Shown piece by piece: positions 23,291 through 42,310 of a stretch of DNA of 42,310 bases; within the stretch, counting starts at the first letter, position 1; every line of letters begins with the position of its first letter. The notes beneath the pieces were generated by a model, which did no database searches, was not told the origin of the DNA, and saw nothing but the letters and a program-made list of their open reading frames with translations. The position numbers and the translations under genes were made by a program. Source of the DNA: Deltaproteobacteria bacterium (lineage in GTDB: Bacteria > Desulfobacterota > GWC2-55-46 > DRME01). The stretch covers positions 1-42,310 of the forward strand of contig DRME01000004.1 in the NCBI GenBank assembly GCA_011375175.1, written 5' to 3'.

Positions 23291-23345
23291 CGTTTTTCAA
23301 GGAGGCTCCCTCGGGGGAACAAACCGGGACCTCCTTCAAAAAACG
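23291..23345 (-). repeat. Inverted repeat overlapping the 3' end of btuB
   Basis: The arms CGTTTTTCAAGGAGG (23291-23305) and CCTCCTTCAAAAAACG (23330-23345) pair with a single bulge. The right arm lies inside the last codons and stop of btuB. It could slow readthrough into the downstream genes or protect the btuB transcript end. Confidence 0.45.
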
Positions 23346-25357
23346 TAGCGGTAGCCCGCAAAGAGGGCGCGGCCCTGCTTGGGATAGCCCTTCTTCTCGT
23401 AGTAGTACCTGTCGAAGAGGTTGTCGGCCTTGAAGGTCAGCCTGTGATGGTCGCGCAGGGTTACGGCCACGACGAGATCCACCACCGTGAATGAGGGATA
23501 CTGGATCTCCGGGTATCCTGGCGCGTTCCAATCCGTGTCCTTCATGGAGCCCCGGCTTCGCAGGTGGAGCTTGCCCTCCACCCACTCGTCCTCGTAGCGT
23601 ATGCCGTAGTTGATGGTATAGCGGGCCACGTTGTGGATATCGCGCATCGAGCCGCCGGGCCGCTCCTCCTCTGCCCTGAGCATGTGGGTGGAGTTGACGA
23701 ACAGCGAGAGCGAGCGCTCCCAGTCGAGCGCCGCCCCCATGTCGAAGGAGACGTCCGTCTCCACCCCCTCCATCTCGGCGCTCAGGCTGTTGACGTAGGT
23801 CGTGGTGTAGCCGCTCGTTACGGTCGTTATCTTGTCGTCCACAGAGGTGCGGAAGTAGGTGACGTCGGCCCATATGCCGAGGCGGCGGCTATGGTAGCCG
23901 AGACCGGCGTCGTATGTGACCGACGACTCGGGGTCGAGGCCGGCGTTGCCGGTGGTCACCATGGTCACGCCGCCCACGACCCGCTCCGAGTAGCCGGCAA
24001 GCTGCGCGGCCGTGGGAGGGACGAAGGCCCGGCCCGCCGTGGCGTGCAGGCGCAGGCCCCCGCCGAGGAGGTAGCTCAGGCCGGCCCTGGGGCTGAAGGT
24101 GGAAAAACCCTCCGAGCGCGGCGTGAAGTCCGTCTTGTACGGCGTGGGCCTCGTCTCCACGTCGAAGGAGTCGTAGCGGCCTCCGGCCGTGACCGTGAGC
24201 CTGCCGCCCCCGAGGCTCCAGACCGTCTCCACGTAGCCCGCCCGGTTTGTGCGTCCCTCGTCGGGCGAGTAGGGGGCCTTCCTCGTACCGTCGGTCTTGT
24301 AGCTCCGGCTCTCCATGTCGATCTCCTGATAGTCGAAGCCTGCTATTATGCGGTGGTCCCCGACGGCGAGCTCGTCTCTGAGCTGGAGGCCGAACCAGTC
24401 GATCTCCGAATCGTAGCTGCGGTAGGGGTCCGACGGCACGGGCGTGGACCAGCCGGTGTAGCGCTTGTAGTTCTCGGAGGTCTCGTTCGCCTTGTAGACG
24501 GTGAGGGTGACGCGGTTGTGCGGGCCGAGGCCGCCTCCCACGGTGAGGTCGAGGCCGTAGCGGTCCAGGTCCTTGTAGCCCGCCTTCGAGTCGCCGTAGA
24601 AGATGTCGCCCGGAGTTTCGATGTCACGGCCCCGGTAGAAGTCCGCGGCTGCGTCGGCCCGCCATGTGCCGCCCATGTCGATGCCGAGGCGCAGGCCGCC
24701 GTTCTCCGTCTCATAGGTCGTGTTGGCCCTTGTGCGGCCGTCTCCCGTATCGTAGTCGCCGGAGCGGTCGTAGCGGCCGGCGTGGACGTCGAGGTCGAGG
24801 GCCTTGGTCAGGGAGCCGCCGACGGAGAACTTCTGGAAATTGGTGGCAAAGGAGCCCAGGCCCGCCTCGACCATGCCACTTGCAGGCCCCGTGCTCTTTT
24901 TTGTGATGATGTTCACCACCCCGCCCATGGCCTCGGCGCCGTAGAGAGAGGAGGCCGGTCCCTTGAGGACCTCGATCCGCTCTATGTTGTCGGCAAGGAG
25001 GGCGGCCAGGTTGGTGGCCCCCGCGGGCCTGCCGTTTACGAGCACCAGCGAGTGCTTGGTGATGCCCGAGAACTCGGGCCTGAAGCCGCGGATGCCTATG
25101 CCGGCCAGGGCCCCGGGGTACTCGATGACGTCGACCGAGCTGTTCTTCTTGAGCTGTTCGGTCAGGGTGTCGCCGGTTGTGAGCTCCACGGTGGAAGAGT
25201 CGATCACCTCCACCCTGGCCGGCACGCGCGTTGCGTCGTAGCCGCTCCTTGTGGCCGTCACCACCACCTCGGCCATGACGGGTGTGGCGGCGTCGTCTCC
25301 GGCCGAGGCCGGCGACGCCGCAAGAAGCGACGCCAGAGCAAACCATACCTTCTTCAT
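23336..25357 (-). CDS. btuB: TonB-dependent outer-membrane receptor, BtuB-like
   Basis: A 673-residue precursor. A signal peptide occupies about 1-19 (ASPASA). A TonB-box-like stretch follows (TPVMAEVVVTAT). The plug domain (about 40-150) contains IRGFRPEFSGITKHSLVLVN and LKGPASSLYGAEAMGGVVN. The rest is a 22-strand beta-barrel that ends GYRYVF with the terminal aromatic needed for outer-membrane insertion. Cobalamin riboswitches upstream and corrinoid genes downstream make cobalamin or another corrinoid the likely ligand; sequence alone would also allow a siderophore or heme. ATG at 25357 follows AAGGAG. Confidence 0.9.
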   Translation of the reverse strand: MKKVWFALASLLAASPASAGDDAATPVMAEVVVTATRSGYDATRVPARVEVIDSSTVELTTGDTLTEQLKKNSSVDVIEYPGALAGIGIRGFRPEFSGITKHSLVLVNGRPAGATNLAALLADNIERIEVLKGPASSLYGAEAMGGVVNIITKKSTGPASGMVEAGLGSFATNFQKFSVGGSLTKALDLDVHAGRYDRSGDYDTGDGRTRANTTYETENGGLRLGIDMGGTWRADAAADFYRGRDIETPGDIFYGDSKAGYKDLDRYGLDLTVGGGLGPHNRVTLTVYKANETSENYKRYTGWSTPVPSDPYRSYDSEIDWFGLQLRDELAVGDHRIIAGFDYQEIDMESRSYKTDGTRKAPYSPDEGRTNRAGYVETVWSLGGGRLTVTAGGRYDSFDVETRPTPYKTDFTPRSEGFSTFSPRAGLSYLLGGGLRLHATAGRAFVPPTAAQLAGYSERVVGGVTMVTTGNAGLDPESSVTYDAGLGYHSRRLGIWADVTYFRTSVDDKITTVTSGYTTTYVNSLSAEMEGVETDVSFDMGAALDWERSLSLFVNSTHMLRAEEERPGGSMRDIHNVARYTINYGIRYEDEWVEGKLHLRSRGSMKDTDWNAPGYPEIQYPSFTVVDLVVAVTLRDHHRLTFKADNLFDRYYYEKKGYPKQGRALFAGYRYVF

Positions 25358-25407: not shown

Positions 25408-25540
25408 GAAGCAGGTCTCCTGGCTCTCGGTCATCCTACCGGCCGCGCCTTCCCGTCCCGACTGCGGACAGTGGCTTACGATGCGGCTTTCGTCACGATT
25501 ACAGTCGCGGGGCGGCGGGAGCTTCCCACTCCCTTCCCTT
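25408..25540 (-). promoter_or_regulatory. Cobalamin riboswitch, 5'-truncated (btuB-proximal copy)
   Basis: Read leftward it contains the AGGGAA junction, a P3-like hairpin (GGGAG/CTCCC), the CCGCGACTGTAA segment, GACGAAAGCCGCATCGTAA, the B12 box GCCACTGTCC, and the end AGCCAGGAGACCTGC. These match the cobalamin riboswitch core and the intact copy at 25778-25943. The strands that should lie before AGGGAA, the 5' sides of P1 and P2, are absent. A family-1 repeat begins exactly there. It probably no longer forms the closing helix. Confidence 0.8.
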
Positions 25541-25618
25541 AAGGAAACTCTGATTAATTACCCTGAGGGAACCTTTTTACAAAAAGGTTCCCTCAGGGTA
25601 ATTAATCAGAGCTTCCTT
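25541..25618. repeat. Family-1 palindromic element, copy C (minimal form)
   Basis: A nearly perfect 78-base palindrome. The inverted ends (AAGGAAACTCTGATTAATTA and partner) close directly on the GAGGGAACCTTTTT hairpin (25565-25594), without the other two hairpins. It separates the two cobalamin riboswitches and abuts the truncated one. Confidence 0.85.
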
Positions 25619-25668
25619 GACTCCGAAGCACCTTGCCGCGGGGCCTTCGCCGGGAAGGCCCCGGCCCA

Positions 25669-26074: not shown

Positions 26075-26218
26075 CAGACAAAGTACCGCGACCTCCATGC
26101 CGACCGCGGGGTTGACTGCGTCACCGCCAATCCGCCCTTCAACGACAGCGACTGACGCGGCTATCTGCTCAAGGACTACAAAGACTTGGAAGTACGGGAC
26201 ACCGCCTGGATTCAATAG
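26075..26218 (+). pseudogene. Decayed fragment of a type I restriction-modification methyltransferase (HsdM)
   Basis: Read rightward in one frame, the sequence gives DCVTANPPFNDSD, a TGA stop, then RGYLLKDYKDLE...DTAWIQ and a TAG. The NPPF motif IV of N6-adenine methylases in the context NPPFNDSDW, and the later AWIQ, are typical of HsdM. The expected Trp codon TGG after NDSD reads TGA, and the stretch between LLKD and AWIQ is much shorter than normal. No start or flanking hsdM sequence remains. It overlaps the end of the CARF-like gene on the other strand. Confidence 0.65.
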
Positions 26219-27078
26219 CTGTCCGTCCTGTAGGTGATGTCGTAGGTCTTCACCTTGTAGTCGACGGTACTGACGTACTGGAAGCGGCGCCCCTCGGCGA
26301 GCGCCACGGCAGCGCCGGCTACGGTCGGAGGCTTCTGGCCGCCGGTTATATCAACCAGTATGTCGCAGGCGTTTATGCCCACACCGCCGAGGTACTCGTA
26401 GGCCGCCTCGACGGCCCTTACGAGCTCGTCGGCGTCCTCGAAGTCCACGCCCTTTCGCCACCGCTCATCGAGGTCGCCGGCCGACACGAAACTGATATTC
26501 TTCTTGCCCGTGAGCAAACGGCTCATCTCCTCAAACTTCTCGTAGTGACGCCATGTGCCCTCTATATTTTTTCCTCCCACCTCCCTGTCAATGGACGGAC
26601 ATACGACGACACGTTCAAGCCGGGCGAGGTGATAGGAAAAGGCGAGGAAGGGCATGAACCAGCTCTTGAAAATATCCTTACTTTTTTCGAGCCTCGGCCG
26701 GTCGGCAAGGAGACCGGCCAGCCCTTTTTCTTTGATTTCTTCGACGGTAAGGTCCTTGGGGGGAGGGCTGAGGAATATGACGAGCGCCCTGACCTCCTGG
26801 GGGGAATCGTCCTGCTGGATCCGCAGCCTCACGTGGCCCGCGGCATTCCGGCTCTCACGATATAACCACCACAAATAAACAGGGAAGAGCAGCAGGCCCA
26901 ACAGAACGCCCTTGGAGCAGTTACCTGTAAGGATGGCGAACAGGCTGTTGGAGAAGACCCCGAGGAGGACGAGAAAACCTATGATGAGGGATACTATCAT
27001 GATGTTGCTCGTCCTGAAGAGCGAGCGTATCACCTCGATACCGAACTCCACCGTCATACGGGGCGGTCTGTTCGCCAT
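26212..27078 (-). CDS. Membrane-anchored CARF-like protein, putative cyclic oligoadenylate effector
   Basis: A 288-residue protein with two hydrophobic helices near the N-terminus (about 26-49 and 56-71) and a cytoplasmic domain of about 200 residues. The domain ends VDITGGQKPPTVAGAAVAL (D243 to K249), the conserved DxTGGxK motif of CARF-type ligand-binding domains. CARF domains bind cyclic oligoadenylates made by Cas10. No HEPN or nuclease motif is seen, so the membrane helices are the likely effector part, as in membrane CARF proteins such as Cam1 that permeabilise or depolarise the membrane. It is last in the cas10 operon. ATG follows AAGGAG. The family assignment is by motif only. Confidence 0.7.
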   Translation of the reverse strand: MANRPPRMTVEFGIEVIRSLFRTSNIMIVSLIIGFLVLLGVFSNSLFAILTGNCSKGVLLGLLLFPVYLWWLYRESRNAAGHVRLRIQQDDSPQEVRALVIFLSPPPKDLTVEEIKEKGLAGLLADRPRLEKSKDIFKSWFMPFLAFSYHLARLERVVVCPSIDREVGGKNIEGTWRHYEKFEEMSRLLTGKKNISFVSAGDLDERWRKGVDFEDADELVRAVEAAYEYLGGVGINACDILVDITGGQKPPTVAGAAVALAEGRRFQYVSTVDYKVKTYDITYRTDSY

Positions 27079-27116
27079 AACGCAATCTCCTTATCCCGCC
27101 ACGGCGGGATGTCGCC

Positions 27117-28535
27117 TCAGGCGGGCCCTACCTTCTTTATCCTGAAATCGCCGCCTACTTCGAGCACCTTGACCTTGTGTCTCTCTCCATCGCGCCAATT
27201 GATGTAGCCCCCTGAGACCCTGCAGGAGAAGCATTCTGCATCATCGGGCTTGAGCGTGAATATGTCGCCTCTCTTCCCCATCATCGTCACCATGAGCTTG
27301 TCGCCTCTCCGTGGCGGCCTCTTATTCGCAGACCTACGATCTTCTTTAGAAGACTTTTTGTCAGAAGACTCGACACGGACGGACGAGCCGCCGGAACCGC
27401 CATGGCCGCCTCTCATGTAACAGCCGTTTTTATCTATGCCTACACCTTTGTAGTTGTTATACCGGAGGTAGCCGATCTCCGCGTGTTCGTGCTTGTCAAG
27501 ACGAAGAAGCCCCATCAGCTCGTCGGGTATCGTGACCGCCTCGGCTTCCTTCTTAAGCTCGTCTGCCTTTACTGATTCCCCGCCGTCCTTCTTGTAGCGC
27601 TCCCCGCCGCGGTGGACGCGGGACTCGTCCCACTTTATGGTTATGGAGCACGAGCCGAAGCCCAAGGGCCTTGCCATCCCAACCTTGTGGCCGAGCCCCT
27701 CTTCCAGCACCATGACGCGGACGAGCGTCTTTAGTTCCTCATCAGTGAGCCCATTGAGCAGGACGTCGAAGTCGAACCTGGCGCCACTCGGGGCGTACTC
27801 CTCTATGCCGCAGGCCCTCTTCGACCACCTGTCCCCTACGTCTTCAGGCTCCTCGAACCCTTCGTGGTGGTAATAGAACTTGCGGCCGGCGATGGAACCA
27901 TTACACAGCCCGTTGCCGCTGTATATGGCGTAGTGGTATGGCTTGGGGGCGGAGAGTTCCGCGAGTCTTATGTAAGCTTTGTAAGCTTCCTGGAGGGAGC
28001 ATCCTTGGTCGAGCACGGCGTCGGTGAAGACCACCCTGCCGCGCAGGTGCAGGGTCTCCCCCTCGATGGCTCCGAAGAGGCGACAGGCCGGGCACAGGCT
28101 TTCGGGGCCGCGGCATCGCATGTGCTCTTCCCCCAGAGGCTTGAAAGAAAATTCTCTGGTACGCTTACCGAGCTTGACTCCGCCCTCGGTCGCCGCCAGG
28201 GGGAGGCACGAGTTCGTCACGGCCTCGAAGACGCTTCGCACCATGCCGCGGATGGAGGCGCCCTGGATGATGGGCTTGTCCGCTCCGTTCCTGAGAAACC
28301 GGAAGACCTTCTGGCCGCCCGCTCCGTTCGGGGCCGGAGTGCGCTGGTCGGCGGTGAAGAGAGGGCTCTTCGCCTCCAGCGTGCATACGAGCCTTCCGGT
28401 GTAAAGCTCCCCGAGGTCGTGCCACAGTACTGGAGCCCCCCGTTTGCTCTCCCCATTTTTCAGAGAGACGAAGTTGTAGGGATTCACCGATGGCTTGAAC
28501 TCTCCGCTCACTCGTCTATCCCCCTTCCTCACCAC
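27117..28535 (-). CDS. Type III CRISPR RAMP protein, TIGR03986-like (Cas7 group)
   Basis: A 472-residue RAMP protein. The N-terminal NPYNFVSL and the Cas7-like FRFLRNGADKPIIQGASIRGMVRS match the TIGR03986 family of type III-D-like loci. CRGPESLCPACRLFGA is a cysteine-bearing loop also seen in the neighbouring RAMPs. The C-terminal 60 residues (RGDKLMVTMMGKRGDIFTL...) look like a small OB or S1-like beta domain and follow a Lys/Arg/Ser-rich linker. It is probably a backbone or capping subunit of the crRNA complex. It overlaps csx19 by 20 bases; GTG starts at 28535 and 28511 are both supported by purine-rich sites, and I kept the upstream one. Confidence 0.8.
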   Translation of the reverse strand: MVRKGDRRVSGEFKPSVNPYNFVSLKNGESKRGAPVLWHDLGELYTGRLVCTLEAKSPLFTADQRTPAPNGAGGQKVFRFLRNGADKPIIQGASIRGMVRSVFEAVTNSCLPLAATEGGVKLGKRTREFSFKPLGEEHMRCRGPESLCPACRLFGAIEGETLHLRGRVVFTDAVLDQGCSLQEAYKAYIRLAELSAPKPYHYAIYSGNGLCNGSIAGRKFYYHHEGFEEPEDVGDRWSKRACGIEEYAPSGARFDFDVLLNGLTDEELKTLVRVMVLEEGLGHKVGMARPLGFGSCSITIKWDESRVHRGGERYKKDGGESVKADELKKEAEAVTIPDELMGLLRLDKHEHAEIGYLRYNNYKGVGIDKNGCYMRGGHGGSGGSSVRVESSDKKSSKEDRRSANKRPPRRGDKLMVTMMGKRGDIFTLKPDDAECFSCRVSGGYINWRDGERHKVKVLEVGGDFRIKKVGPA

Positions 28536-29070
28536 CGAATATCTCCATCTTCACGGCCAAGCAGCGCTCGAACTCGCCGCTGCCGTTGCGCCCCCTGTAC
28601 CTGCGCACAGTGAGACAGGGTGCTGCCTTTGCGTGCTGACCGACCTTACCCCACGTTATGGGGTATTTCAAATAACCCGGTATGGTGTTGTCATGAAAGA
28701 CCACCATCCCGACACCGCCTTCGGGGTCCCCTGCCGGGTCCACCGGCTCGCCCCACAGGATGAGCCCGGCATCGCCGGTCTTTTCAAGCTCCAGTTCTCC
28801 ACCGAACTCATCGGGCATCTTGCCATCGTCTAATATGAGCACGCAATGGAGCTTACCGTCCGACTTCTTTCGCCAGCGGTACTCGCCGTTTTCGCCGAAT
28901 ATGCGGCCCTGGGGCCAGATATCTGGTATACTCCAGGAGACGTTGTCGGTAAGATCGAGCCTTGCCGCGACGGGCGACTCCAACCAGGCGAAGCACAGGC
29001 CGAAACAATCCGGCTTTACCGAAGACGGATGCTCATTGGCGCCGGCGATGAAGAAACCTATAACGGCCAT
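28516..29070 (-). CDS. csx19: CRISPR-associated protein Csx19 (TIGR03984-like)
   Basis: A 184-residue protein without RAMP glycine loops. Size, the N-terminal block, the WPQGRIFGENGEYRWRK segment and its place beside a TIGR03986 protein fit Csx19, a subunit typical of type III-D systems. Its role in the complex is not known to me. Its ATG overlaps the stop of the preceding RAMP gene by one base (TGATG), so the two are tightly coupled. Confidence 0.7.
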   Translation of the reverse strand: MAVIGFFIAGANEHPSSVKPDCFGLCFAWLESPVAARLDLTDNVSWSIPDIWPQGRIFGENGEYRWRKKSDGKLHCVLILDDGKMPDEFGGELELEKTGDAGLILWGEPVDPAGDPEGGVGMVVFHDNTIPGYLKYPITWGKVGQHAKAAPCLTVRRYRGRNGSGEFERCLAVKMEIFGGEEGG

Positions 29071-30080
29071 CAGCTCTCGCCTCCACCGCCGGAGCCGTCG
29101 GAAGACTTCTTGTTCATCTCGTCCATGCGACCGTTGAAGGCCGCGGCCGCGGCCTTCCAGAAACCTTGGGGCTCTGTTGGGATGAACTTCTCGTAGAGCG
29201 AGAGAGAACCGCCGACGCCGTTACGCTTCAGGACCTCCTCACTCGTCTCATCGTCCTGGACGAATCCGTACCTCTTCCTCTCCTCCTCTTCCACGAGCGA
29301 CCCCACGCCGACAAGGCGCCCCGCGCACCGCTCCTTCGGGTAGAACAACTTCACATCCCGGACCTCGCCTTTCACAGCGCCGAACCCTTTGCTCTTTCCA
29401 AAGCCGATCTGGACGAGGCCGTCCTCGAAGTCCTTGAGGACGTAAGCCATCAGACCGAGCTGCCAGAGCTCGAAGTTGACGACGGTGATCTTAGTCTCGA
29501 ATTCCGCCCCCTCCAGCACGTGGAACCTCATGTTGGCGCCTCCGCCACCGCCTCCCCCGGTGTAGACGCCGCCTGTAAACCTGTCTATGCCTATCATGTC
29601 GCGGAAGGCCGACGTGCCTCTCACGTCGGCGTCGGCGAAGGTGATCCGGCTCGCATGGCCGGCGAGGCCGAAGAGCTTACAGGCGAGACACGCCTCTTTG
29701 TATACGTCAGCTTTTCCTTCGAGGCGCTTGCCGCAGGAGCGAAAGCGGCTCCCGCCGTCCTGCTCGAAGGGGTCGCAGGCCGCCTCTGCCGGCTTATCGC
29801 CATTGTAGAGCGTGCGGATTATCCTCTCGGCCTGGGCCCGGAAAGGGCCGCGGATCGACGTGGCCGGGACGTAGAAATCGAGCACCCCGAGCCCGGCCCC
29901 GTCGCCGCCGGCCTCCTTCACCTTCTTCTTCACATCCCGCAGGGGCGTGCGGCTTATAAAGACCTTGTGGGGCGCCTTGTCTCCCTTCGTCTTCTCGTAC
30001 CTTCCGTCCGCTATAAGAAGCGGTCCATCGCATTTGAGCCTCCAGGTTATGACCGCCTCGCAAAGTTTCTTCTTGAGCAT
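29070..30080 (-). CDS. RAMP superfamily CRISPR protein, Csm3/Cas7-like (336 aa)
   Basis: Cas7-like features are LDFYVPATSIRGPFRAQAERI near the N-terminal third, a Cys-containing CLACKLFGLAGHASRI block, IGIDRFTGGVYTGGGGGGG (a Csm3-type IDRxTG loop followed by a seven-glycine run) and GFGKSKGFGAVKG. It should bind the crRNA as a backbone subunit. An acidic catalytic residue like Asp33 of Csm3 is not obvious in the first loop. The C-terminus is low complexity (SSDGSGGGGES). ATG at 30080, two bases after the stop of the preceding gene. Confidence 0.8.
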   Translation of the reverse strand: MLKKKLCEAVITWRLKCDGPLLIADGRYEKTKGDKAPHKVFISRTPLRDVKKKVKEAGGDGAGLGVLDFYVPATSIRGPFRAQAERIIRTLYNGDKPAEAACDPFEQDGGSRFRSCGKRLEGKADVYKEACLACKLFGLAGHASRITFADADVRGTSAFRDMIGIDRFTGGVYTGGGGGGGANMRFHVLEGAEFETKITVVNFELWQLGLMAYVLKDFEDGLVQIGFGKSKGFGAVKGEVRDVKLFYPKERCAGRLVGVGSLVEEEERKRYGFVQDDETSEEVLKRNGVGGSLSLYEKFIPTEPQGFWKAAAAAFNGRMDEMNKKSSDGSGGGGES

Positions 30081-30082
30081 CG

Positions 30083-30937
30083 CTACACCTCAGGCCCCGA
30101 TTTCGAAGATGCCGAAGGATCGAAGATTTCAAAGGACCAGCTTATCTTTTTCTCACTGAGAGGCTCCTCTCCCCTGGCGAGCATCTCGAGCATGGCCGCC
30201 GTGTCGTCAAAGCCCTTGACCTTCACATCGCTGAGCTTCACGAGTCCCAGCCCCGCAGCCCGCTTGCCGCCCACGTGGATGCCGCCCTTGAGCACGAGTA
30301 AGGCTATGTTTATGAGTAGATGATCGCTTCCCTCCTTCTCGATATTCTCCGCCGTCATCTCGAATCCGAAAGAGAGGCCGCCGCTGTCCAGCACCTCGTA
30401 GTCGAACTTCACATTCTCTCTCGCCGCCCCGGTGTCGCGGTCGATGCCCACGCCGTCCCTGATGATGGACCGGTCGCGGTGCTCACCTCTCTTCAGCGGG
30501 ACGGAGTCGTGGAATACGAGCCTTGAGGCGAAGACCGTAGAGCCGAAGAGCCGACAGACGTCGCAGTGGGCGGTCAGTATATGATTCATGAGCCGCTCCT
30601 CCCGCTCCGCGCTGTCGGTCACCCCACCGTCTTCGAGCTCTTCGAGGAACGCCTTGGCCTTCTCGTTGCAGTCGTCCCCGGTGAAGAGCGTGCAGCTTTT
30701 AAGGCCCTTGACTACGCCCGCCCCGATTATCCGCTCCACCTCGGAGCGGACGGCTCCGCGCAGGCTGCTGCCGGGGATGAGCGGCCTCCTCGATGCGTCA
30801 CGCATGAGCGGTGCGTCGGTCTCGTCGGAGGCGACACCGCTGGAGAGCCGCAAGGGGGTCTTGAGCTCCAGTGTGCCGGTGAATATGTAGCGGTTTGCAA
30901 GAACGCCATGGTCCTTCATGGTAGTGCCGCTCATCAT
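30083..30937 (-). CDS. RAMP superfamily CRISPR protein, Csm3/Csx7-like (284 aa)
   Basis: This has the strongest Csm3/Csx7 character of the set: APLMRDASRRPLIPGSSLRGAVRSEVER, then CDVCRLFGSTVFASRLVF, DGVGIDRDTGAARENVKFDYEV and GKRAAGLGLVKL. The Asp in TDAPLMRD lies where Csm3 carries its target-RNA cleaving aspartate, so this may be one of the active backbone subunits; that is inferred from alignment by eye. It starts with two ATG codons after AGGAGGAGG and overlaps the csx10 stop by one base. Confidence 0.85.
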   Translation of the reverse strand: MMSGTTMKDHGVLANRYIFTGTLELKTPLRLSSGVASDETDAPLMRDASRRPLIPGSSLRGAVRSEVERIIGAGVVKGLKSCTLFTGDDCNEKAKAFLEELEDGGVTDSAEREERLMNHILTAHCDVCRLFGSTVFASRLVFHDSVPLKRGEHRDRSIIRDGVGIDRDTGAARENVKFDYEVLDSGGLSFGFEMTAENIEKEGSDHLLINIALLVLKGGIHVGGKRAAGLGLVKLSDVKVKGFDDTAAMLEMLARGEEPLSEKKISWSFEIFDPSASSKSGPEV

Positions 30938-32487
30938 TATTCCTCCTCCTTACAACAGTCCATCGGCACGGGCTCCTTGAAGCTTGCCTCGATGCGGTAT
31001 CTGTTATGAAACTTCCTCCAGAAACGGCGCAGCAAATCGAGTCCTTCGGCGCCGCCGGCGCAGAGGCCGCGCCTGTAGCGCTTCTCCTTCACCACGTAAT
31101 CCTTGAAGAGGTCGCCAAGGCTCTCGCGCCTTCTCCTCCCTTCAAGGAGCCACGAACCCTTCTTGCCGGTACGCTCGGCCCCTTTCCGGAGCTTGCCCAA
31201 CTGGTTGTCGATGAAGCTGCAAATATTCTCCTCCGCCTCCTCAAGGTCTTTCGCGCGCCTTATGCGTTCGGCGAGGGCCGCCATCTGAGAGGACGATATC
31301 CGTGACGGCCCGAACCCCAGGGCATAGAGGTCCCCGGCCCTCTCGGCGAGGATTGAGTCCAGGTCGCGGCCCGGCAGCCCTTCGGCGACGTCTTCCCGCT
31401 CCGCCTCCACATGGAAAGGGTGCCACAGCATGGCCCTGCCGTAGCCCTCGAGCCTCCCTTCGCCGATGAAGCCGACGCCGTCGCCATCTGGTATGCAAGG
31501 GTTATCGACCCCCTTCTCGGCCTCGAAGAGGAAGACACTGCCGGCCGCAAGCGCCGTCTTCGGCGTCCTCGGGAGCCCTATGGGCTCGCCGTCGAACCCG
31601 AAGACCCTGCGGGTGGCGGCGAAGACATTTGCCGGCGCCTCCTTCCAGTCGCTCACCTTTATGCCGAGCGGCTCGAGGTCCTTTATGGTAAGAGACGTCC
31701 TGTCACGGAGGTAATCGTCGGTGAAGAGGGCGTCGCAAAGCAGCGTAACGGCGAGCACGGGCCGCCCGAACTTCTCTTTAAATGCCTCGAAGCGCTCTTT
31801 CGCGCCGGCCGGAGGCCAGGCCCAGGCCGCCTCGCCGGCCATCGAGACCCGCGCCCATCCCATACCGCGGCTCACGCCCTTGCCGATGCGGACCTCGAAC
31901 CCGTCCCCCACGAGTTTCCTTATCTTAGCCACGAGGTCCTCGTCACCGTAGATGCGGCCCACGAAGCGCTGCCCCTCTTCCATGACCCGCTGCGTATAGA
32001 GCCTGCCGTGGTCGGCCGAGCCCCTGGCGCGGCTTATGGCGGTCCTCGTGACGAGCCTTCTCGTTACGCCGACCTCCCTGAACCGCATGGGGTCGTAGAA
32101 GCCATTGCAGTAGTCCAGGGGCTTGCTGCAGGGAGTGTCCTCATACTCGCACCGGAGTTCGCCGTTCGATGCGAGCAGGTCCATTACGCCGTGGCCTCCG
32201 TCGGCCCTGAACCCCCCGTAGTACTTGCAGGTGCGGGCCGAGAGGGGTATCGCCTGCGCACCGTCCTTGAAGGCGAAGCCGAAGGAGAGCTTGTCGCCCA
32301 GAAAAAGTCGCTTGAACTCCGGGGAGGAGGCGTCTCCGCCCTCATCTATGTACCGCCACGCGAGCACGCCGCGAAGCGTGTTGCCGGGGATGAAAGTCAG
32401 CGTATCGACGAGATTGGACGATGGCGGCCCTGCGGCTATGAGGGTCGGCGAGTCGAGCCTTATCTCCAAGGCCGTCCGTCCCGTCAT
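30937..32487 (-). CDS. csx10: CRISPR-associated RAMP protein Csx10
   Basis: A 516-residue protein. The N-terminal RAMP domain shows LEIRLDSPTLIAAGPPSSNLVDTLTFIPGNTLRGVLAWRYI, and GKGVSRGMGWARVSM forms a second glycine loop. GFIGEGRLEGYGRAMLWHPFHV marks a later RAMP half, and the C-terminal 150 residues are helical. Together this fits Csx10, the large Cas5-like fusion protein of type III-D systems, which holds the crRNA 5' end. The ATG at 32487 overlaps the previous stop as ATGA. The open frame upstream of that ATG is a shadow. Confidence 0.82.
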   Translation of the reverse strand: MTGRTALEIRLDSPTLIAAGPPSSNLVDTLTFIPGNTLRGVLAWRYIDEGGDASSPEFKRLFLGDKLSFGFAFKDGAQAIPLSARTCKYYGGFRADGGHGVMDLLASNGELRCEYEDTPCSKPLDYCNGFYDPMRFREVGVTRRLVTRTAISRARGSADHGRLYTQRVMEEGQRFVGRIYGDEDLVAKIRKLVGDGFEVRIGKGVSRGMGWARVSMAGEAAWAWPPAGAKERFEAFKEKFGRPVLAVTLLCDALFTDDYLRDRTSLTIKDLEPLGIKVSDWKEAPANVFAATRRVFGFDGEPIGLPRTPKTALAAGSVFLFEAEKGVDNPCIPDGDGVGFIGEGRLEGYGRAMLWHPFHVEAEREDVAEGLPGRDLDSILAERAGDLYALGFGPSRISSSQMAALAERIRRAKDLEEAEENICSFIDNQLGKLRKGAERTGKKGSWLLEGRRRRESLGDLFKDYVVKEKRYRRGLCAGGAEGLDLLRRFWRKFHNRYRIEASFKEPVPMDCCKEEE

Positions 32488-33125
32488 CCTTCGTCCTCCC
32501 TTATCACTATGCCGCCCCTGAGGCGTCCCCGTCCCGCGGCCTTGCGGCCGCCCACGGCGTCGACGAGCCGCGCAACGCCCTTGAGGAAAGCGATCTCTTC
32601 TTCTTTCAGCCCGCGGCAGACGATCCTTCCCTTGAAGACCGCGGGTCCGACGACCTCGTCGAAGTATAGGTGATCTTCCATGGCCCGCCTCGTCCGGCGC
32701 GAGAGTGCCACGCCGGGCCGCACAATGGAGCCGGGCCTGAAGACAGGGCCGTGGCGGAGGCCGCCCACGGCCTCTTTGAGGGACTCCCATACCGCGCCGT
32801 CCATCACGGCGTCGCTGAAATGGAGCATCGCAGGGATGGCGGGGGCGCCGAACAGCCTGCATACGACGCAGGCCCGGTCCGCCTCCTTGCATAGCGGCTT
32901 GTCCTCACCGTGCATGGTAAAGTCGTGATACTTGCCTTGAGAGGCGCGCAAGACCCGCTCGACGAAGAACCGCAGGCGCCCCTTGACGGTGGAGCCCGGT
33001 ATGCATGGCGCTCCGTCGCTCCGCCGCACCACCGTCCTGTCCAGGAGCCCGGTCACGCCGAGGCCGGTGAATACCCCCACGGGGGAGTCGAACTCGAGTG
33101 TGTAGACAAGCTTCGTATCGGTCAT
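32484..33125 (-). CDS. RAMP superfamily CRISPR protein, small Csm3-like (213 aa)
   Basis: A compact Cas7-like protein: YTLEFDSPVGVFTGLGVTG, then LLDRTVVRRSDGAPCIPGSTVKGRLRFFVER, CVVCRLFGAPAIPAMLHF and GGRKAAGRGRLRGGIVI. The Asp in LLDRTVVR is in the position of the Csm3 cleavage residue. It lies between cas10 and csx10, sharing ATGA-type overlaps with both, and should form part of the crRNA backbone. Confidence 0.8.
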   Translation of the reverse strand: MTDTKLVYTLEFDSPVGVFTGLGVTGLLDRTVVRRSDGAPCIPGSTVKGRLRFFVERVLRASQGKYHDFTMHGEDKPLCKEADRACVVCRLFGAPAIPAMLHFSDAVMDGAVWESLKEAVGGLRHGPVFRPGSIVRPGVALSRRTRRAMEDHLYFDEVVGPAVFKGRIVCRGLKEEEIAFLKGVARLVDAVGGRKAAGRGRLRGGIVIREDEG

Positions 33126-34915
33126 GGAGCCGTCCCTTGTCTTCGGGGATGGACGAAGTCATAGAGCTCAACAAGCTCCGACAGGGGAGAGGCGCATCTT
33201 CCTCCGCGACGCCGGAAAGGGAATCTGTCAACATCGAACTTCCCTGTACCGAAGAAGAAGGAAACAAAGGGGTTTTCCGTGGTATTTTCAGACGTGAGCG
33301 TCCCCCCGTCCTTGAGTCTTGCGAGGAGGGAGATGGAGTCGAACCGGGCCTGCAATACATTGTCCTGAAAGAGAGAAGAGTAAAGCGCCTCGAGCTTGCC
33401 GCGGGGGAAACTCTCCTTCTTCATCTTCCTTATGGTTTCCACGAGCCGTCGGGTCTCGTCGGGCGTATAGGGCCGCTCGGTGAGCATCACGGTCTCGCCA
33501 TCGTGGCGGCGCTCGTACTCCTTGCGCCTCGTCTTGAGTGACTCGCTCACCGAACTGTGCTCCACCATGAAATCGAGCGTCCCCATGGCGCAGCCTTCCT
33601 GCGCCTCCCGCCGCTTGGCCGACTTCATCAGCTCCGAGGCCAGCTCGACGAGCATGACCGCCGGGTAGGTGCAGTGCGACACGACGACCCCCGCCGATGT
33701 GGAGAGTCCTTCTTCGCGGAAAGGCCTCTTGAGGCGTCCGTAGGCGATCCACTCCTGTTGAAGAAGCTTCGTCTTCTCGTGGAAGAGCTCCAGGAAAGTC
33801 GCGGCCGTCTCCACCGCGCAGTGAGCCGGAACGGCCAGTATGAGGTCGTCTCCGCCGGCCATGATGAACTCGGCCGGTACGTACCTGCCCTTGCCCTTTC
33901 TGCCGTCATTGATGTCGATGTCGTCGTATTCCTTGAAACTGGTCGCCCCAAGAAGAGCAGCGCTGCTCCACTTTTCGCCGTCATTGATGTCGATGTTGTC
34001 GTATTCCTTGAAACCGACGTGTTTTATGACGGCCTCAGCGGCCGCCTCCTTTGTGGCCCTGTCGACTATCTCGGAGAAGGCCCTGTAGGCCTGCTTGCAC
34101 TCTTCTTCGTCGCCGAATCGCTCTCCGATCCCCTTGACGACCTCGCCCATGCGGTTGCCGTCGGCGTAAATGAGACCCATGTAGTTTCCAGGCCGCGACG
34201 CCTCGCCGATGTCGTCGAAGTCGACCGGAAGCAGCAGCAGCTCTGTCCCGCTGCCGTACCGACGGTCGAGCTCGCCGGCGAGGAAGGAGAGTATGAAGTC
34301 CGGCCTCTCATTCCTGATCTTTTCGAGATTGACGGGGAGCCAGCGGCTGCAGTTGCACTTTTCGTACCTGTAGAAGTAGTTTATCTCCGTTCTCTTGCAG
34401 TGGCACGACCGGCACAGCATGTGTTCGCCCTGGATGTCCGCCATGGGCCTTTCGGCCGGGAAGGCGCCGCAGGAGGTGCAGGGCCTCACCCATCGCCCGC
34501 CTACGGCCGGGCCTGCCCAGCCGCCCGCGAGCTTCTCCTCCCTGGAGCGGCCCACGGCCCTCGCCACCCACCCGGCGAAGTTCTCGCCTTCCCTGCGCTC
34601 CTCGACAGGAGCCGAGACCCGGGCGTTCACGGTGTACTCTCTGTAGAGGTCCTTGACACGAGCTGCGAATGCGTCGGCCTCTTCCCGTTTTTCGAAGAGC
34701 GCCCTCCCCGATCCTCCGCCGAAGTAGACTTCTTCGACGCCGCCGGACCAGGTGGTCTTTGAGAGGCACTTTCCGACGCAATGGGTGTTGAGCTTGTCGA
34801 GCAGCATGCTGGCGCCGCGCACCTCGCGCAGGAAGGGGGAGGCGAAGAGATAGTCCTTTACCTTCAGGGTCTCGACGACGACGAGAAATCTTTTTCGGCC
34901 TGGCGATGAGGGCAT
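33122..34915 (-). CDS. cas10: Cas10, type III CRISPR large subunit with GGDD cyclase motif and no HD domain
   Basis: A 597-residue Cas10/Cmr2-like protein. It begins with LVVVETLKVKDYLFASPFLREVRGASMLLDKLN and lacks any HD nuclease motif. A zinc-finger-like group CTSC...CRSC is near residues 145-165. The palm has IYADGNRMGE (Asp about 252) and AGGDDLILAVP (GGDD at about 354-357), so it should make cyclic oligoadenylate when target RNA is bound. Between them is an in-frame near-duplication of FKEYDxIDINDG, 25 residues apart. I chose ATG at 34915; a TTG at 34948 would add 11 residues, and neither has a good ribosome site. It is the first gene of the effector operon. Confidence 0.92.
   Translation of the reverse strand: MPSSPGRKRFLVVVETLKVKDYLFASPFLREVRGASMLLDKLNTHCVGKCLSKTTWSGGVEEVYFGGGSGRALFEKREEADAFAARVKDLYREYTVNARVSAPVEERREGENFAGWVARAVGRSREEKLAGGWAGPAVGGRWVRPCTSCGAFPAERPMADIQGEHMLCRSCHCKRTEINYFYRYEKCNCSRWLPVNLEKIRNERPDFILSFLAGELDRRYGSGTELLLLPVDFDDIGEASRPGNYMGLIYADGNRMGEVVKGIGERFGDEEECKQAYRAFSEIVDRATKEAAAEAVIKHVGFKEYDNIDINDGEKWSSAALLGATSFKEYDDIDINDGRKGKGRYVPAEFIMAGGDDLILAVPAHCAVETAATFLELFHEKTKLLQQEWIAYGRLKRPFREEGLSTSAGVVVSHCTYPAVMLVELASELMKSAKRREAQEGCAMGTLDFMVEHSSVSESLKTRRKEYERRHDGETVMLTERPYTPDETRRLVETIRKMKKESFPRGKLEALYSSLFQDNVLQARFDSISLLARLKDGGTLTSENTTENPFVSFFFGTGKFDVDRFPFRRRGGRCASPLSELVELYDFVHPRRQGTAP
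33902..34014. repeat. Direct repeat inside cas10
   Basis: Two 38-base copies (33902-33939 and 33977-34014) differ at one position and are 75 bases apart, an exact 25-codon unit. They encode the doubled FKEYD(N/D)IDINDG. The segment between them, EKWSSAALLGATS, is not itself repeated beyond the unit. Confidence 0.85.
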
Positions 34916-35103
34916 AGCTTGAGAGTCGAGAGAGGCTTTCGACTGCAAGAGAGAAGAGATACCGGACCGGTGCCCTGCGGCACCGCCGGCAGACCCGATA
35001 TAGACTGACGGCCTGGTCGATGGCTCAGGCCGCCGGAACCGTCAGATGGCAGGCGGTCGTTGGGATGGCTTATCGATGGATGTCCGGCCGCTGACGCACC
35101 GTA

Positions 35104-35133
35104 ATATTACACTGATCACGGCGCCGGTGTCAA
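35104..35133 (-). promoter_or_regulatory. Predicted promoter of the cas10 effector operon
   Basis: Read leftward: a perfect TTGACA, an 18-base spacer, TAATAT. The leader to the cas10 start would be about 180 bases. It contains two stable hairpins: CGGCCTG/CAGGCCG (35009-35032) and GGTGCC-CTGC-GGCACC (34969-34984). Confidence 0.65.
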
Positions 35134-35209
35134 GCGTATGTTTATATTTGCTTGAAGGCAATATGAAGCCTTTTTGCGTGAAGACGGAGAGGCGGTTAGC
35201 GCCGTCCCT

Positions 35210-36151
35210 TCACTCTCCTTCCAGCACGTAGCGTCCGAGTCCGAAGGTGGCTCCCTTGCCGGCGTGCAGCGCCTCGCCCAGGCGCAGTATGGGCGCGAAC
35301 CCGGCGTCCACCCCCCTGAAGACGACCGTCCCCACGAGTCCGCCGAGGCGCATGCGGGTCTTCTGGCGCGACGAGTAGCGTTCCCAGTCGTGCCAGCGGA
35401 GGTCGGCGTGCGCCCTCTCCACGGCCGACGCCCTTTCGATGAGCCCCCTGAAGTCGAGCTCCAGTCTCACTGCGCAGTGGAACCAGGCGAGCGCCGAGAG
35501 CCTGCGAAGAAGCGTTCTCACCAGGTGGTGGAAGGCGAGGTCCGAGACGAGCGAGCCGCCGTGGACGATGCGAAGCGGCGTCAGCAGGCGAAGGCGCAGC
35601 CCGCCGCCGGGCCGGATGGGCAGCGTCGCGCCGCGGGCCGGCCTCAGGACGCCAGCCGTGGCGCCGAACCTCTCGCTTACGCCGTCGTAGACGACCTTTC
35701 CGTCCGAGCCGTCGCAGACGGCCTCGACCGTGAACCTGCCGCGTCCCCTGCCGGCGCCCGCTCGTCCGAATCCGACGAAGGCCCGCACGAACCATGGCAG
35801 GTAGTCTACGGCCCTGCCCACGAGCACGGCCCCGGCCTCGAAGGTTCGGCCGGGCTCGTAGTACGTAATGCCGTCGTCCGGCGGTTCGAGGACGAAGGGG
35901 TGGGGGACGGAACGGTATAGGCGGAGCATGGCGGCGTCCGGCGGTGGCGGCGTCTCGAAGAGGTAGGCGTAGGGGCAGGTCGCTCGGAAGGCGCAGTCCA
36001 GGCATTCCACGCCCTTGACCATACAGGCGGCGCGCTTCAGGGCGCGACCCAGGCCGCCGCGCAGGGCCGATCCCTTGAAGGGCGGCAGCCTTACGGCATC
36101 GACGGCCCGCAGCCGCAGGGTGTATCTGGAGCAGGTCACGGCATGGAGCAC
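35210..36151 (-). CDS. cas6: Cas6-type CRISPR RNA endoribonuclease
   Basis: A 313-residue RAMP protein. The N-terminal VRLPPFKGSALRGGLGRALKRAACM is followed by a Cys group (CLDCAFRATCPYAYLFETP). The C-terminal FAPILRLGEALHAGKGATFGLGRYVLE carries the glycine-rich loop of the Cas6 C-terminal family. Cas6 cuts the repeat RNA to release crRNAs with an 8-base repeat tag. A general-base His cannot be assigned by eye. GTG start at 36151 with GAGAGG eight bases upstream. It lies between the array and the cas10 promoter on the same strand. Confidence 0.85.
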   Translation of the reverse strand: MLHAVTCSRYTLRLRAVDAVRLPPFKGSALRGGLGRALKRAACMVKGVECLDCAFRATCPYAYLFETPPPPDAAMLRLYRSVPHPFVLEPPDDGITYYEPGRTFEAGAVLVGRAVDYLPWFVRAFVGFGRAGAGRGRGRFTVEAVCDGSDGKVVYDGVSERFGATAGVLRPARGATLPIRPGGGLRLRLLTPLRIVHGGSLVSDLAFHHLVRTLLRRLSALAWFHCAVRLELDFRGLIERASAVERAHADLRWHDWERYSSRQKTRMRLGGLVGTVVFRGVDAGFAPILRLGEALHAGKGATFGLGRYVLEGE

Positions 36152-39787: not shown

Positions 39788-40737
39788 ACCTCGTCCAGGC
39801 CGTCACAAGCGCCCTGGCCGACGAGATGGAGCGCGACGCCCGCGTCGTGCTGCTGGGCGAAGACATAGGCAGGGACGGAGGCGTATTCAGGGCCACCGAG
39901 GGCCTTCTCGAAAGGTTCGGCCCCGAGCGCGTCATCGACACGCCGCTCGCCGAGCTCGGCATCATCGGCGCCTCCATCGCCATGGCGGCCTGCGGACTAA
40001 GACCGGTCGCCGAGATACAGTTCATGGCCTTCATCTACGGCGGCCTCGAACAGCTCATAAGCCACGCCGCCAGGCTGCGCTCGCGAAGCCGCGGCCGCTT
40101 CACCGTCCCCATGGTCGTGCGCACCCCCTACGGCATAGGCATAAAGGCCCCTGAACTCCACTCCGAGTCCACCGAGGCCATCCTCTGCCACGTGCCGGGA
40201 CTCAAGGTCGTCGTCCCCTCCACGCCGTACAACGCCAGGGGACTTCTCACGGCCGCCATCCGCGACCCCGACCCCGTCATCTTCCTCGAACCCTCGAGGC
40301 TCTACCGCGGCGTCAAGGGCGAGGTGCCGGAAAGACCATACGAGATCGAACTCGGCAGGGCGAGCGTCTACCAGGAAGGCACAGACCTCACCGTCGTGGC
40401 CTGGGGCACCATGCTCCACAGGGCCGTCGAGGCGAGCGAAGGCTTCGACGCCGAGATAATAGACCTCATGACGCTCAAACCCTTCGACGAAGAGACAATC
40501 ATCGAGTCGGTGAAGAAGACGGGCCGGCTCGTCATAGTCCACGAGGCGACCAGGAACTGCGGCCTGGGGGCCGAGATATCGGCGCTCGTCGCCGAAGAGG
40601 CCATCCTCCACCTCAAGGCGCCGATAGTGAGAGTGGCGGGCCCCGAGGCCGTCGTGCCCCTTGCGCTGCTCGAAGACCATTACATGCCGTCGAAAGAACG
40701 AATACGGCGCGCCTACGAACGGGTCATGGAGTTTTAG
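39775..40737 (+). CDS. pdhB: Pyruvate / 2-oxo acid dehydrogenase E1 component, beta subunit
   Basis: A 320-residue transketolase-like beta subunit. LNLVQAVTSALADEMERDARVVLLGEDIGRDGGVFRATEGL is the conserved N-terminus, with the Glu of LGED that activates thiamine diphosphate. It also shows DTPLAELGIIGASIAMA, EIQFMAFIYGGLEQL and the C-terminal HEATRNCGLGAEI. It forms the E1 heterotetramer with PdhA. The ATG at 39775 lies inside the end of pdhA and has GAGGAG upstream. Confidence 0.92.
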   Translation: MATLNLVQAVTSALADEMERDARVVLLGEDIGRDGGVFRATEGLLERFGPERVIDTPLAELGIIGASIAMAACGLRPVAEIQFMAFIYGGLEQLISHAARLRSRSRGRFTVPMVVRTPYGIGIKAPELHSESTEAILCHVPGLKVVVPSTPYNARGLLTAAIRDPDPVIFLEPSRLYRGVKGEVPERPYEIELGRASVYQEGTDLTVVAWGTMLHRAVEASEGFDAEIIDLMTLKPFDEETIIESVKKTGRLVIVHEATRNCGLGAEISALVAEEAILHLKAPIVRVAGPEAVVPLALLEDHYMPSKERIRRAYERVMEF

Positions 40738-40943
40738 GGAAACTCTGATTTATTGCACTGAGGGAACCTTTTTGTAAAAGGTTCCCTCAGACTCCCTCCA
40801 AAAACTTTTAACGCGACTTGGTTTCCCCCTGTTTTGCCAAGCAAAACAGGGGGAAACCAAGTCGTATTGAAAGTCTTTGAAGGGGGTCTGGGGGAAACTT
40901 TCTACAGAAAGTTTCCCCCAGAGTAATTAACAGAGTAATTAAC
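40738..40943 (+). repeat. Family-1 palindromic element, copy D (complete)
   Basis: It starts at the base after the pdhB stop. The order is end CTCTGATTTATTGCACTG, hairpin GAGGGAACC (40760-40788, one base shorter on one arm), hairpin CGACTTGGTTTCCCCC with TTTTGC/GCAAAA top (40814-40864), hairpin GGGGGAAACTTTC (40890-40919), and a decayed end AGAGTAATTAACAGAG. The lower stem of the middle hairpin reads GACTTGG/CCAAGTC where copies B and E read GAGTTGG/CCAACTC, a paired change. It separates pdhB from the E2 gene. Confidence 0.9.
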
Positions 40944-40984
40944 GACCGTCGCCGCAAAGCGGAGCAAGAAGGCGAGGTGTGAAG

Positions 40985-42163
40985 ATGCCCCATGAATTCA
41001 AGCTGCCCGACCTCGGCGAGGGCATAACGGAAGGCGAGATAGTGAGGTGGCTCGTCAAGGAGGGGGACCGCGTCGACGCCCACCAGGGGGTGGTCGAGGT
41101 GGAGACCGACAAGGCCATCGTGGAGGTGCCGTCTCCGAAGAAAGGGGTCGTCGCAAGGCTCAACAGGAAGGAGGGCGACACCGTCGAGGTGGGAGAGGTC
41201 ATATTCACCCTGACCGTCGAGGGCGAGGAGAAGAAGCTCGAGCAGCGGCCCGCCTCGCTCTCCGTCGTCGGCACCATGCCCGAGACCGAAGAGGTGCTCG
41301 CCACCCCCGGCGTGCGCCACCTGGCCAAAAAGCTCGGCGTGGACCTCAACGGCGTGGCCGGCACCGGTCCCGGAGGGCGCATAACCGAGGAGGACGTGCG
41401 CGATGCCGCCATGGCCCAGGGCGCGGCGGCCTCCCCGGGCGGCGACCGCGACAGGTACGGCCCCGTCGAGAGGATAAAGCTCAAGGGCGTGCGAAAGAGC
41501 ATCACCCGAAGGCTCATCCGCTCACAGAAGGTCTCGGCCTTCGTCACGGCCATGGACGAGGCCGACGTCACCGGCCTGTGGAACCTCAAGAACCGCGAAA
41601 AGGAGGCGGCCGCGAAGCTGGGCGCACACCTCACCTTCATGCCCTTCTTCATCAAGGCCGTCCAACACGCCCTCAAGGCCCACCCCTTGCTCAACGGCTC
41701 GGTCGACGACGAGGGCGAGGAGATCGTGGTGAAAAAGTACTACAACATCGGCATCGCCGTGGACACCGACGAGGGACTCATGGTGCCGGTCGTAAAGGAA
41801 GTGGACCGCAAATCCATAGTGGAGCTCGCCGCCGAACTCGGAGAGCTGAGCCGCAAGGCCAGGGAGAGGAAGATAACGCTGGACGAACTCAAGGGCTCCA
41901 CCTTCACCATCACCAACTACGGCACCTTCGGCGGCCTCTTCGCCACCCCCATCCTCAACCACCCCGACGTGGGCATACTCGGCACAGGACGCATCCGCGA
42001 CAAACCCTGGATCCACGAGGGCGAGATCAAAATACGCAAAATACTGCCCATCTCGCTCACCTTCGACCACCGCGTGGTGGACGGCTCCGAAGCATCGCTG
42101 TTCATGAGCCGCATCATCAACTACCTCGAAGACCCGGGCAAACTCTTCATCGAAAGCGCTTAG
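40985..42163 (+). CDS. pdhC: Dihydrolipoamide acyltransferase, E2 component of the 2-oxo acid dehydrogenase complex
   Basis: A 392-residue E2. It has one N-terminal lipoyl domain (about 1-80) with the lipoylated Lys43 in VETDKAIVEV, a peripheral subunit-binding domain (about 104-140: LATPGVRHLAKKLGVDL...GPGGRITEEDV) and the catalytic CoA-acyltransferase domain (about 160-392) with TFDHRVVDGSEASLF (His362, Asp366). It transfers the acyl group from lipoate to CoA and forms the core of the complex. ATG at 40985 was preferred over a GTG six bases earlier because GAGGTG is well placed for it. The E3 gene is not in the window. Confidence 0.93.
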   Translation: MPHEFKLPDLGEGITEGEIVRWLVKEGDRVDAHQGVVEVETDKAIVEVPSPKKGVVARLNRKEGDTVEVGEVIFTLTVEGEEKKLEQRPASLSVVGTMPETEEVLATPGVRHLAKKLGVDLNGVAGTGPGGRITEEDVRDAAMAQGAAASPGGDRDRYGPVERIKLKGVRKSITRRLIRSQKVSAFVTAMDEADVTGLWNLKNREKEAAAKLGAHLTFMPFFIKAVQHALKAHPLLNGSVDDEGEEIVVKKYYNIGIAVDTDEGLMVPVVKEVDRKSIVELAAELGELSRKARERKITLDELKGSTFTITNYGTFGGLFATPILNHPDVGILGTGRIRDKPWIHEGEIKIRKILPISLTFDHRVVDGSEASLFMSRIINYLEDPGKLFIESA

Positions 42164-42165
42164 GT

Positions 42166-42310
42166 AAGCTCTGATTTATTGCACTGAGGGAACCTTTTTG
42201 TAAAAAGGTTCCCTCAGACTCCCTCCAAAAACTTTTAATGCGAGTTGGTTTCCCCCTGTTTTGCCTGGCAAAACAGGGGGAAACCAACTCGTATTGAAAG
42301 TCTTTGAAGG
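42166..42310 (+). repeat. Family-1 palindromic element, copy E (cut by window end)
   Basis: It begins two bases after the E2 stop: end CTCTGATTTATTGCACTG, hairpin GAGGGAACCTTTTT (42186-42215), middle hairpin CGAGTTGGTTTCCCCC with TTTTGCC-TGGCAAAA top (42241-42291), then the linker TTGAAAGTCTTTGAAGG at the edge. It is in the same orientation as copy D, again directly after a gene of the pdh cluster. Confidence 0.9.

Follow-up and report, generated by a model that had tools for sequence, protein, structure and literature searches.

Paired changes and turned loops in the middle hairpin of a MITE-like bacterial repeat are consistent with quasipalindrome template switching

Here, we describe a MITE-like repeat of ~205 bp whose middle hairpin (HP2; 24-bp arms, loop of 2–5 nt) shows both signs of template switching, namely, homogenized arms and inverted spacers. 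We consider it probable (at roughly 0.62) that HP2 stays paired mainly at the DNA level, by quasipalindrome template switching that homogenizes the arms and inverts the loop.

The element combines an outer stem, a first hairpin (HP1), an arm in which the linkers LK1 and LK2 pair and carry HP2, and a third hairpin (HP3) into a cloverleaf, with the parts in the order outer arm GGAARCTCTGATT…, HP1 (CTGAGGGAACCTTTTT-GT-…), LK1, HP2, LK2, HP3 (CTGGGGGAAACTTTCT-AC-…), and outer arm …AATCAGAGYTTCC. One copy, designated D (208 nt), folds as single-stranded DNA into this cloverleaf, including the long LK1/LK2 and HP2 arm, at −75.9 kcal/mol versus −24.3 ± 3.3 kcal/mol for shuffled sequences, and pairing in the element is therefore far above chance. 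Within the window (i.e., the whole stretch of 42,310 nucleotides analyzed), copy D occupies positions 40734–40945 on the (+) strand, with a degenerate right outer arm, and comprises HP1 (40758–40790), LK1 (40791–40811; imperfectly paired with LK2), HP2 (40814–40864; 24-bp arms, loop CAA), LK2 (40867–40887; G-rich and partly mirror-symmetric with the HP3 arm), and HP3 (40888–40921), all on the (+) strand. Copy E (42160–42310, [+] strand; HP2 at 42241–42291, loop CTG) is incomplete, ending at the window edge; copy B lies at 5433–5635 on the (−) strand, with HP2 at 5506–5562; and copy A (93–216, [+] strand; HP2 at 93–130) lacks the 5′ part. Copy C (25539–25620, [+] strand) is a short form, a near-perfect palindrome made up of outer arm, HP1, and outer arm only, and may represent the simplest mobile unit. 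Judged by Pfam matches of the flanking genes, copies D and E are hosted by a 2-oxoacid dehydrogenase operon, with D separating the E1-beta and E2 genes and E following that for E2. The window also holds a CRISPR type III-like gene cluster (26212–36151; RAMP protein, Cas10, and Cas6, three proteins assigned by Pfam) and, ~4 kb apart, a CobN/magnesium-chelatase-like protein (15510–19409) and a gene (23336–25357) that appears TonB-receptor-like, as judged by its translation only. Several copies of the own genome (L018, L026, L027, and others) have HP1 or HP3 variants with an extra small hairpin, GGGTCACAGACCC / GTGGGCCTATGGCCC, at matching places of both halves, which suggests homology between the left half of the element and its right half read in reverse.

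Across the whole genome (2.49 Mb in 138 contigs), there are 208 HP3 sites and 395 LK2 linker sites (≤3 mismatches). The reading covered about one third of the linker sites, in part selected for a perfect LK2 or HP3, and 129 distinct copies were parsed via LK1 and LK2, with the linkers giving the orientation. The LK1…LK2 order beats its reverse by at least 4 letters in 128 of the 129 copies (by 1 in the odd copy, L106); since this order is constant, inversion is confined to HP2. The element ends, GGAARC…GYTTCC, are terminal inverted repeats, and the repeat is multi-copy and non-coding, its ~205 bp being too short for a transposase, which are all features of MITEs. Identical 4-bp sequences directly flank both ends in 19 of the 39 copies with both ends recognized, compared with 3 of 39 in one mismatched control; they are A/T-rich (TTAA in four copies, CTAA in three, ATAA in two, and ten others once each). 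Because these 4-bp repeats outside the ends are target duplications, the repeat has been mobile. At two contig ends (L065 and L075), the repeat runs straight into an unrelated stretch of at least 100 nt that is almost identical in both copies and may be another repeat or an insertion.

MITEs and REP/BIME palindromes are likewise small, non-coding, intergenic, hairpin-forming, and often present in many copies, but the repeat described here differs from them in its 205-bp cloverleaf and in its genomic setting: a search of the genome (98.6% complete) for three domains, PF13358 (IS630-type DDE_3), PF01797 (Y1_Tnp, IS200/RAYT), and PF01609 (DDE_Tnp_1), found none of them. Assignment to REP/BIME elements with a RAYT was rejected on the missing Y1_Tnp transposase, and a role as terminator was rejected on the lack of enrichment where gene ends converge (56 tandem, 5 convergent, 17 divergent, and 51 incomplete contexts among the 129 copies, a rough classification in which the simple gene caller overlooked the E1-beta gene of the window). 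A search of viral contigs gave no match, and a literature search by words, rather than by sequence, found no description of the element among the papers covered.

By their HP2 arms, the 129 copies divide into 106 of type I, 21 of type II, and 2 others. What the first-pass annotation had reported for HP2 in the window was confirmed: the lower stem reads GAGTTGG/CCAACTC in copies B and E and GACTTGG/CCAAGTC in copy D (CGACTTGG…/…CCAAGTCG), a single paired change between D and B/E; in addition, copy B has C4/G4 instead of C5/G5, being one base shorter in both arms. The sequence given for copy A, GACCCCGATTTTGC/GCAAAATCGGGGT, is also correct; copy A carries the second arm type (CCCTGCGGATCAYCCCGATTTTGC), a different arm altogether from that of the others, and departs from type II near the stem base. 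The statement that pairing is kept while the sequence changes extends to the whole genome, where 83 of 95 type I copies of standard length and 17 of 21 type II copies have a fully paired HP2, though 30 and 16 of these copies, respectively, differ from the consensus. The remaining 11 type I copies were set aside for length: in six, the tract measures 4 nt rather than 5 nt on either side of the stem; in another two, a single arm is short by one base; the loop is extended in two more; and the last is truncated.

Relative to the consensus, distinct changes in type I HP2s number 9 two-sided (27 cells) and 12 one-sided (14 cells), and those in type II HP2s number 7 (18 cells) and 8 (8 cells), respectively, with one extra cell per type in which both sides changed without pairing. 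The suggestion that unpaired single changes might prove as frequent as paired ones thus fails when cells are counted (two-sided to one-sided, 27:14 and 18:8), although by distinct types the ratio is 16:20 and unpaired singles do exist; half-states are present at several of the two-sided positions. When the HP2 partner was slid by 1–3 bases, 0–2 two-sided types remained, and column shuffles gave averages of 1.3 and 2.1 two-sided types (maxima of 4 and 5). Other parts of the element behave differently. HP1, parsed in 69 of the 129 copies (inserts, indels, or contig ends interrupt it in the rest), has 0 two-sided and 10 one-sided types (Fisher's test versus HP2, P = 0.009), and HP3 (102 copies) has 2 and 8, counts that are biased because the 0-mismatch site listing preferred a perfect HP3; the comparison with HP2 therefore rests on HP1. 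LK1/LK2 (123 copies) shows 2 distinct two-sided and 21 one-sided changes and keeps fixed mismatches, and the outer stem (35 copies) shows 4 and 39, respectively.

Could the paired variants simply be old haplotypes passed on by descent, with pairing not enforced at all? The first-pass annotation had proposed a covariation test against shared ancestry, and in simulated descent along Kingman or star trees with mutations arising independently (4,000 runs for each arm type and tree shape, with mutation numbers set from the observed counts), two-sided types averaged 0.04–0.78, and the observed 9 (type I) and 7 (type II) were never reached (maxima of 6 and 4). Shared ancestry alone is therefore inadequate for the pairs, and we find this explanation hardly credible, all the more so since five type I and four type II two-sided variants occur in a single copy each. 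What speaks for it is the G to C change at position 3, shared by 14 of the 95 type I copies. This variant is scattered on a tree of the outer parts of the element (14 changes for 14 copies), a poorly resolved tree that yields only three supported independent pairs; these are concordant (3/3) in most pairings, an underpowered result (P = 0.25).

The loops of HP2 occur in both orientations in both arm types. Type I loops are CTG (35), CAG (31), CAA (19), and TTG (9), which form two pairs of reverse complements, plus seven others found once each, and the orientation ratio is 42:48 (CTG/TTG versus CAG/CAA). Among the 21 type II copies, AA and TT occur nine times each, three loops are longer, and no AT or TA intermediate was found. 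We rejected a single-base origin of the loops as a general account: CTG and CAG are one base apart, so that type I taken alone is weak, and it is the AA/TT loops of type II and the longer spacers of relatives that carry the argument for inversion. In contrast to HP2, the loop of HP1 is inverted in one copy only (84 GT-type to 0 AC-type; 9 GA to 1 TC), and that of HP3 is also nearly fixed (AC to GT, 81:2; TC to GA, 11:0). The fixed loops of HP1 and HP3, whose sequence is also conserved, may reflect selection rather than an absence of switching.

Many contig ends fall inside the element, as would be the case if short-read assembly had turned the loops or perfected the arms; nonetheless, an artifact of this kind seems very improbable. 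Such contigs mostly run from unique flank through HP2 to the far linker or hairpin, a few of them stopping within or before HP2, and their commonest exact end overlaps measure 113–137 nt (some 31–95 nt), compared with 51 nt for HP2. Moreover, in 94 of the 129 copies the contig continues for at least 40 nt past both linkers, and inverted spacers are also found in relatives assembled into few contigs, e.g., L145 (one-contig genome G009) and L195 (G035, ~40 contigs).

Matches to the element were found in 25 of 59 searched genomes, own genome included, all within the order (11 of the 59 belong to the same class only, and none of those 11 match), and a stricter pattern matched 6 of 395 genomes across the phylum, own genome included, one of the 6 lying outside the order. 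Linker sites number 5–20 per genome in seven relatives. The 127 loci examined in 20 related genomes gave 90 parsed HP2 hairpins (16 genomes), 13 unparsed loci, 12 that held the anchor but added no new copy (apparently, in most cases, because the copy had been read before or a contig end interrupted it), and 12 without an anchor. Parsing and thresholds were set by us, and a few of the 90 hairpins are not clean HP2s (e.g., L262 is an HP1); conversely, the unparsed loci include at least two real hairpins below the score (L152 and L169), several without an element-like HP2, and three copies from genome G017, of another family of the order (L159, L165, and L171), which have the short hairpin GGTGGGCACAGCCCACC in place of HP2, the same in several copies.

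Most of the 90 hairpins share the frame TTCC, 8 variable positions, CCCCC, spacer, GGGGG, and the 90 comprise 83 distinct left arms; 64 of the hairpins are perfect, and 30 of 1,584 pairs are unpaired. Pairwise identity is 0.44 in the 8-bp HP2 core and about 0.88–0.89 in LK1 and the HP1/HP3 arms. The latter values are raised, because those parts were located with patterns that tolerated 5 changes, and conservation of TTCC is by construction (64 of the 90 were chosen on it). Between close pairs of the same genome, differences were two-sided in 140 cases versus one-sided in 39, although the pairs are not independent; this, too, counts against descent without enforced pairing. Spacers were turned round between copies in seven cases (7–17 nt), including an exact 12-nt inversion in genome G041 (GGTGTTACTGGG in L209 versus CCCAGTAACACC in L204) and an exact 9-nt inversion in genome G047 (GATAAAACA in L226 versus TGTTTTATC in L224); further exact or near inversions are L145/L195, L156/L180, L031/L176, L189/L234, and L206/L208. 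Among the 46 of 82 relative spacers that are 7–40 nt long, 35 pairs proved similar, 20 in the same and 15 in the inverted orientation, compared with 4.6 for shuffled sequences; the weaker of these similarities are A/T runs.

The relatives also bear on exchange between copies, whereby HP2 cassettes would spread by recombination or gene conversion, in either orientation owing to the palindrome and with both arms traveling together. Copies do exchange, since at least one copy, L100, is a mosaic of two HP2 types; in addition, types I and II switch 18 times on the best, poorly supported, outer-part tree, and each of the four common loops is found together with the position-3 variant. Exchange can spread the distinct two-sided variants but cannot create them, and no clearly symmetric recombinant (LK1…reverse of LK1) was seen among the 129 copies, though parsing required LK1-like and LK2-like sides. 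The relatives have far fewer copies and almost all of their arms differ, which is the opposite of between-copy homogenization. As the cause of pairing in HP2, we therefore regard such exchange as quite improbable.

A further explanation is structural selection, in which HP2 must pair either as RNA or as single-stranded or cruciform DNA recognized in transposition, so that single changes are removed or compensated. The strong fold of the whole element agrees with it, as does the conservation of HP1, HP3, and the linkers across genera, with the HP2 core keeping pairing only. The outer stem points the same way: it covaries in relatives (own-pair score of 12.5 versus 7.1 for cross pairs; own partner best in 14 of 25) and shows an excess of G·T over A·C mismatches, both in relatives (65 versus 39; P = 0.014) and in the own genome (37 versus 16; P = 0.005), and selection on the element may thus still operate. 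The G·T excess is absent from HP2, however, where G·T and A·C mismatches number 6 and 7 among 24 in the own copies, 9 and 10 among 30 in relatives, and 6 and 6 in the strand of the flanking gene, where callable; because G·T does not exceed A·C, HP2 pairing does not look RNA-enforced. Nor does structural selection predict that about half of the loops be inverted, and the spectrum of two-sided changes resembles that of one-sided changes, with many transversions (transitions to transversions, 9:7 two-sided and 12:8 one-sided among distinct changes, counted from the change lists). Relative to genes, moreover, copies are found either way round (32 sense and 24 antisense among the 56 in tandem context, by the rough gene caller), and no Rfam family reached the gathering score in window positions 40000–42310, where 23 matches were to miRNA models. 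Overall, we judge it unlikely that structural selection is what keeps HP2 paired.

The alternatives named in the first-pass annotation, selection for the hairpin or a copying mechanism that enforces it, are together supported, and in HP2 the evidence favors copying, because loops are found both ways, G·T is not preferred, two-sided changes have about the same spectrum as one-sided ones with equal shortening of both arms, and HP1 has one-sided changes only. By quasipalindrome template switching, the nascent or lagging strand would fold back as HP2 is being replicated, and the polymerase would occasionally copy one arm off the other or cross to the opposite strand and copy through the loop. A mutation in one arm would then be erased or transferred to the other arm, so that changes would come in compensatory pairs, transversions and length changes of one base among them, and copying through the loop would turn it round. 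We infer that the agent is template switching by the polymerase and not some other process that copies one arm from the other, and the switching presumably takes place in resident copies and not just in active source copies. Two points count against template switching: covariation of the outer stem, whose arms are ~150–170 nt apart, is explained less well by a local process, and the G·T excess there is as RNA-level selection would produce. Because the adjacent LK1/LK2 retains fixed mismatches and mostly one-sided changes, correction stops at HP2; and because the 8-bp core varies more than the linkers or HP1/HP3, constraint on the non-HP2 parts must be added to the account. With 24 of 2,784 HP2 pairs unpaired in the own genome, and counting the relatives (0.9–1.9% in all), a balance of mutation and correction in the absence of selection would put correction at ~100–230 times the rate of point mutation, as a rough estimate.

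A bolder version, which we hold to be doubtful, is that HP2 is palindromic by mutation and not by selection, with the conserved, G-rich, near-triplex LK1-HP1 and LK2-HP3 units stalling forks from either direction and switching occurring many-fold more often than point mutation. The LK2-HP3 unit is partly mirror-symmetric (GAAGGGGG / GGGGGAAA, mirror 7/8 with a 3-nt loop; 18 of 2,000 shuffles reach the mirror score), and the symmetry of the HP1 side is weak (179 of 2,000 shuffles). As described in PMC4666352, intrastrand triplexes (ITxF) have been linked with genome instability and consist of three consecutive blocks with a stem of 6–15 nt and loops of 1–6 nt; we rejected this structure for LK2-HP3, whose second loop, itself a hairpin, has ~14 nt and falls outside the required 1–6 nt. 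A role of LK2-HP3 in fork stalling, and thereby as the driver of switching within HP2, is speculation.

According to PMC7202029, PMC8604942, and PMC8794818, quasipalindrome template switching predicts both copying with one arm as template and loop inversion upon crossing. As reported for E. coli and yeast (PMC7202029 and PMC8604942), it makes imperfect inverted repeats more perfect and, in yeast, homogenizes arms and inverts spacers, as in HP2; those systems were scored in reporters or coding genes, whereas HP2 belongs to a repeat family in a genome and its relatives, with many records and loops near 50:50. For rRNA and miRNA hairpins, the same cause of compensatory change and loop inversion has been proposed (Monttinen and Loytynoja 2022, PMC8794818), the combination being described there as extremely rare (6 cases in Table 1, versus 69 with loop inversion only). 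The same study notes the strong conservation of rRNA loops, whereas the loop of HP2 seems unconstrained and is widely inverted. Inverted repeats of nematomorph mitochondria (PMC6649704) likewise keep their arms identical, for which active conversion has been proposed and template switching named, but they are long and lie in coding mitochondrial DNA, unlike HP2 in its bacterial mobile repeat. Template switching itself is already known, and what is new here is a natural, many-fold replicated record of it in a repeat family.

With more than 100 copies in one genome and 90 hairpins from relatives, paired change, loop inversion, and the missing G·T signature can be weighed together, so that the repeat makes the template-switch account of compensatory change directly testable. 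Compensatory change is routinely taken as proof of a functional structure, and the HP2 data suggest that covariation can arise from a copying process, which calls for caution toward claims of structured RNA in palindromic repeats that are founded on covariation only. If the bolder version were true, each copy would carry its own ever-changing, perfectly paired stem and freely turning loop, and the repeat would serve as a natural, replicated clock of template switching.
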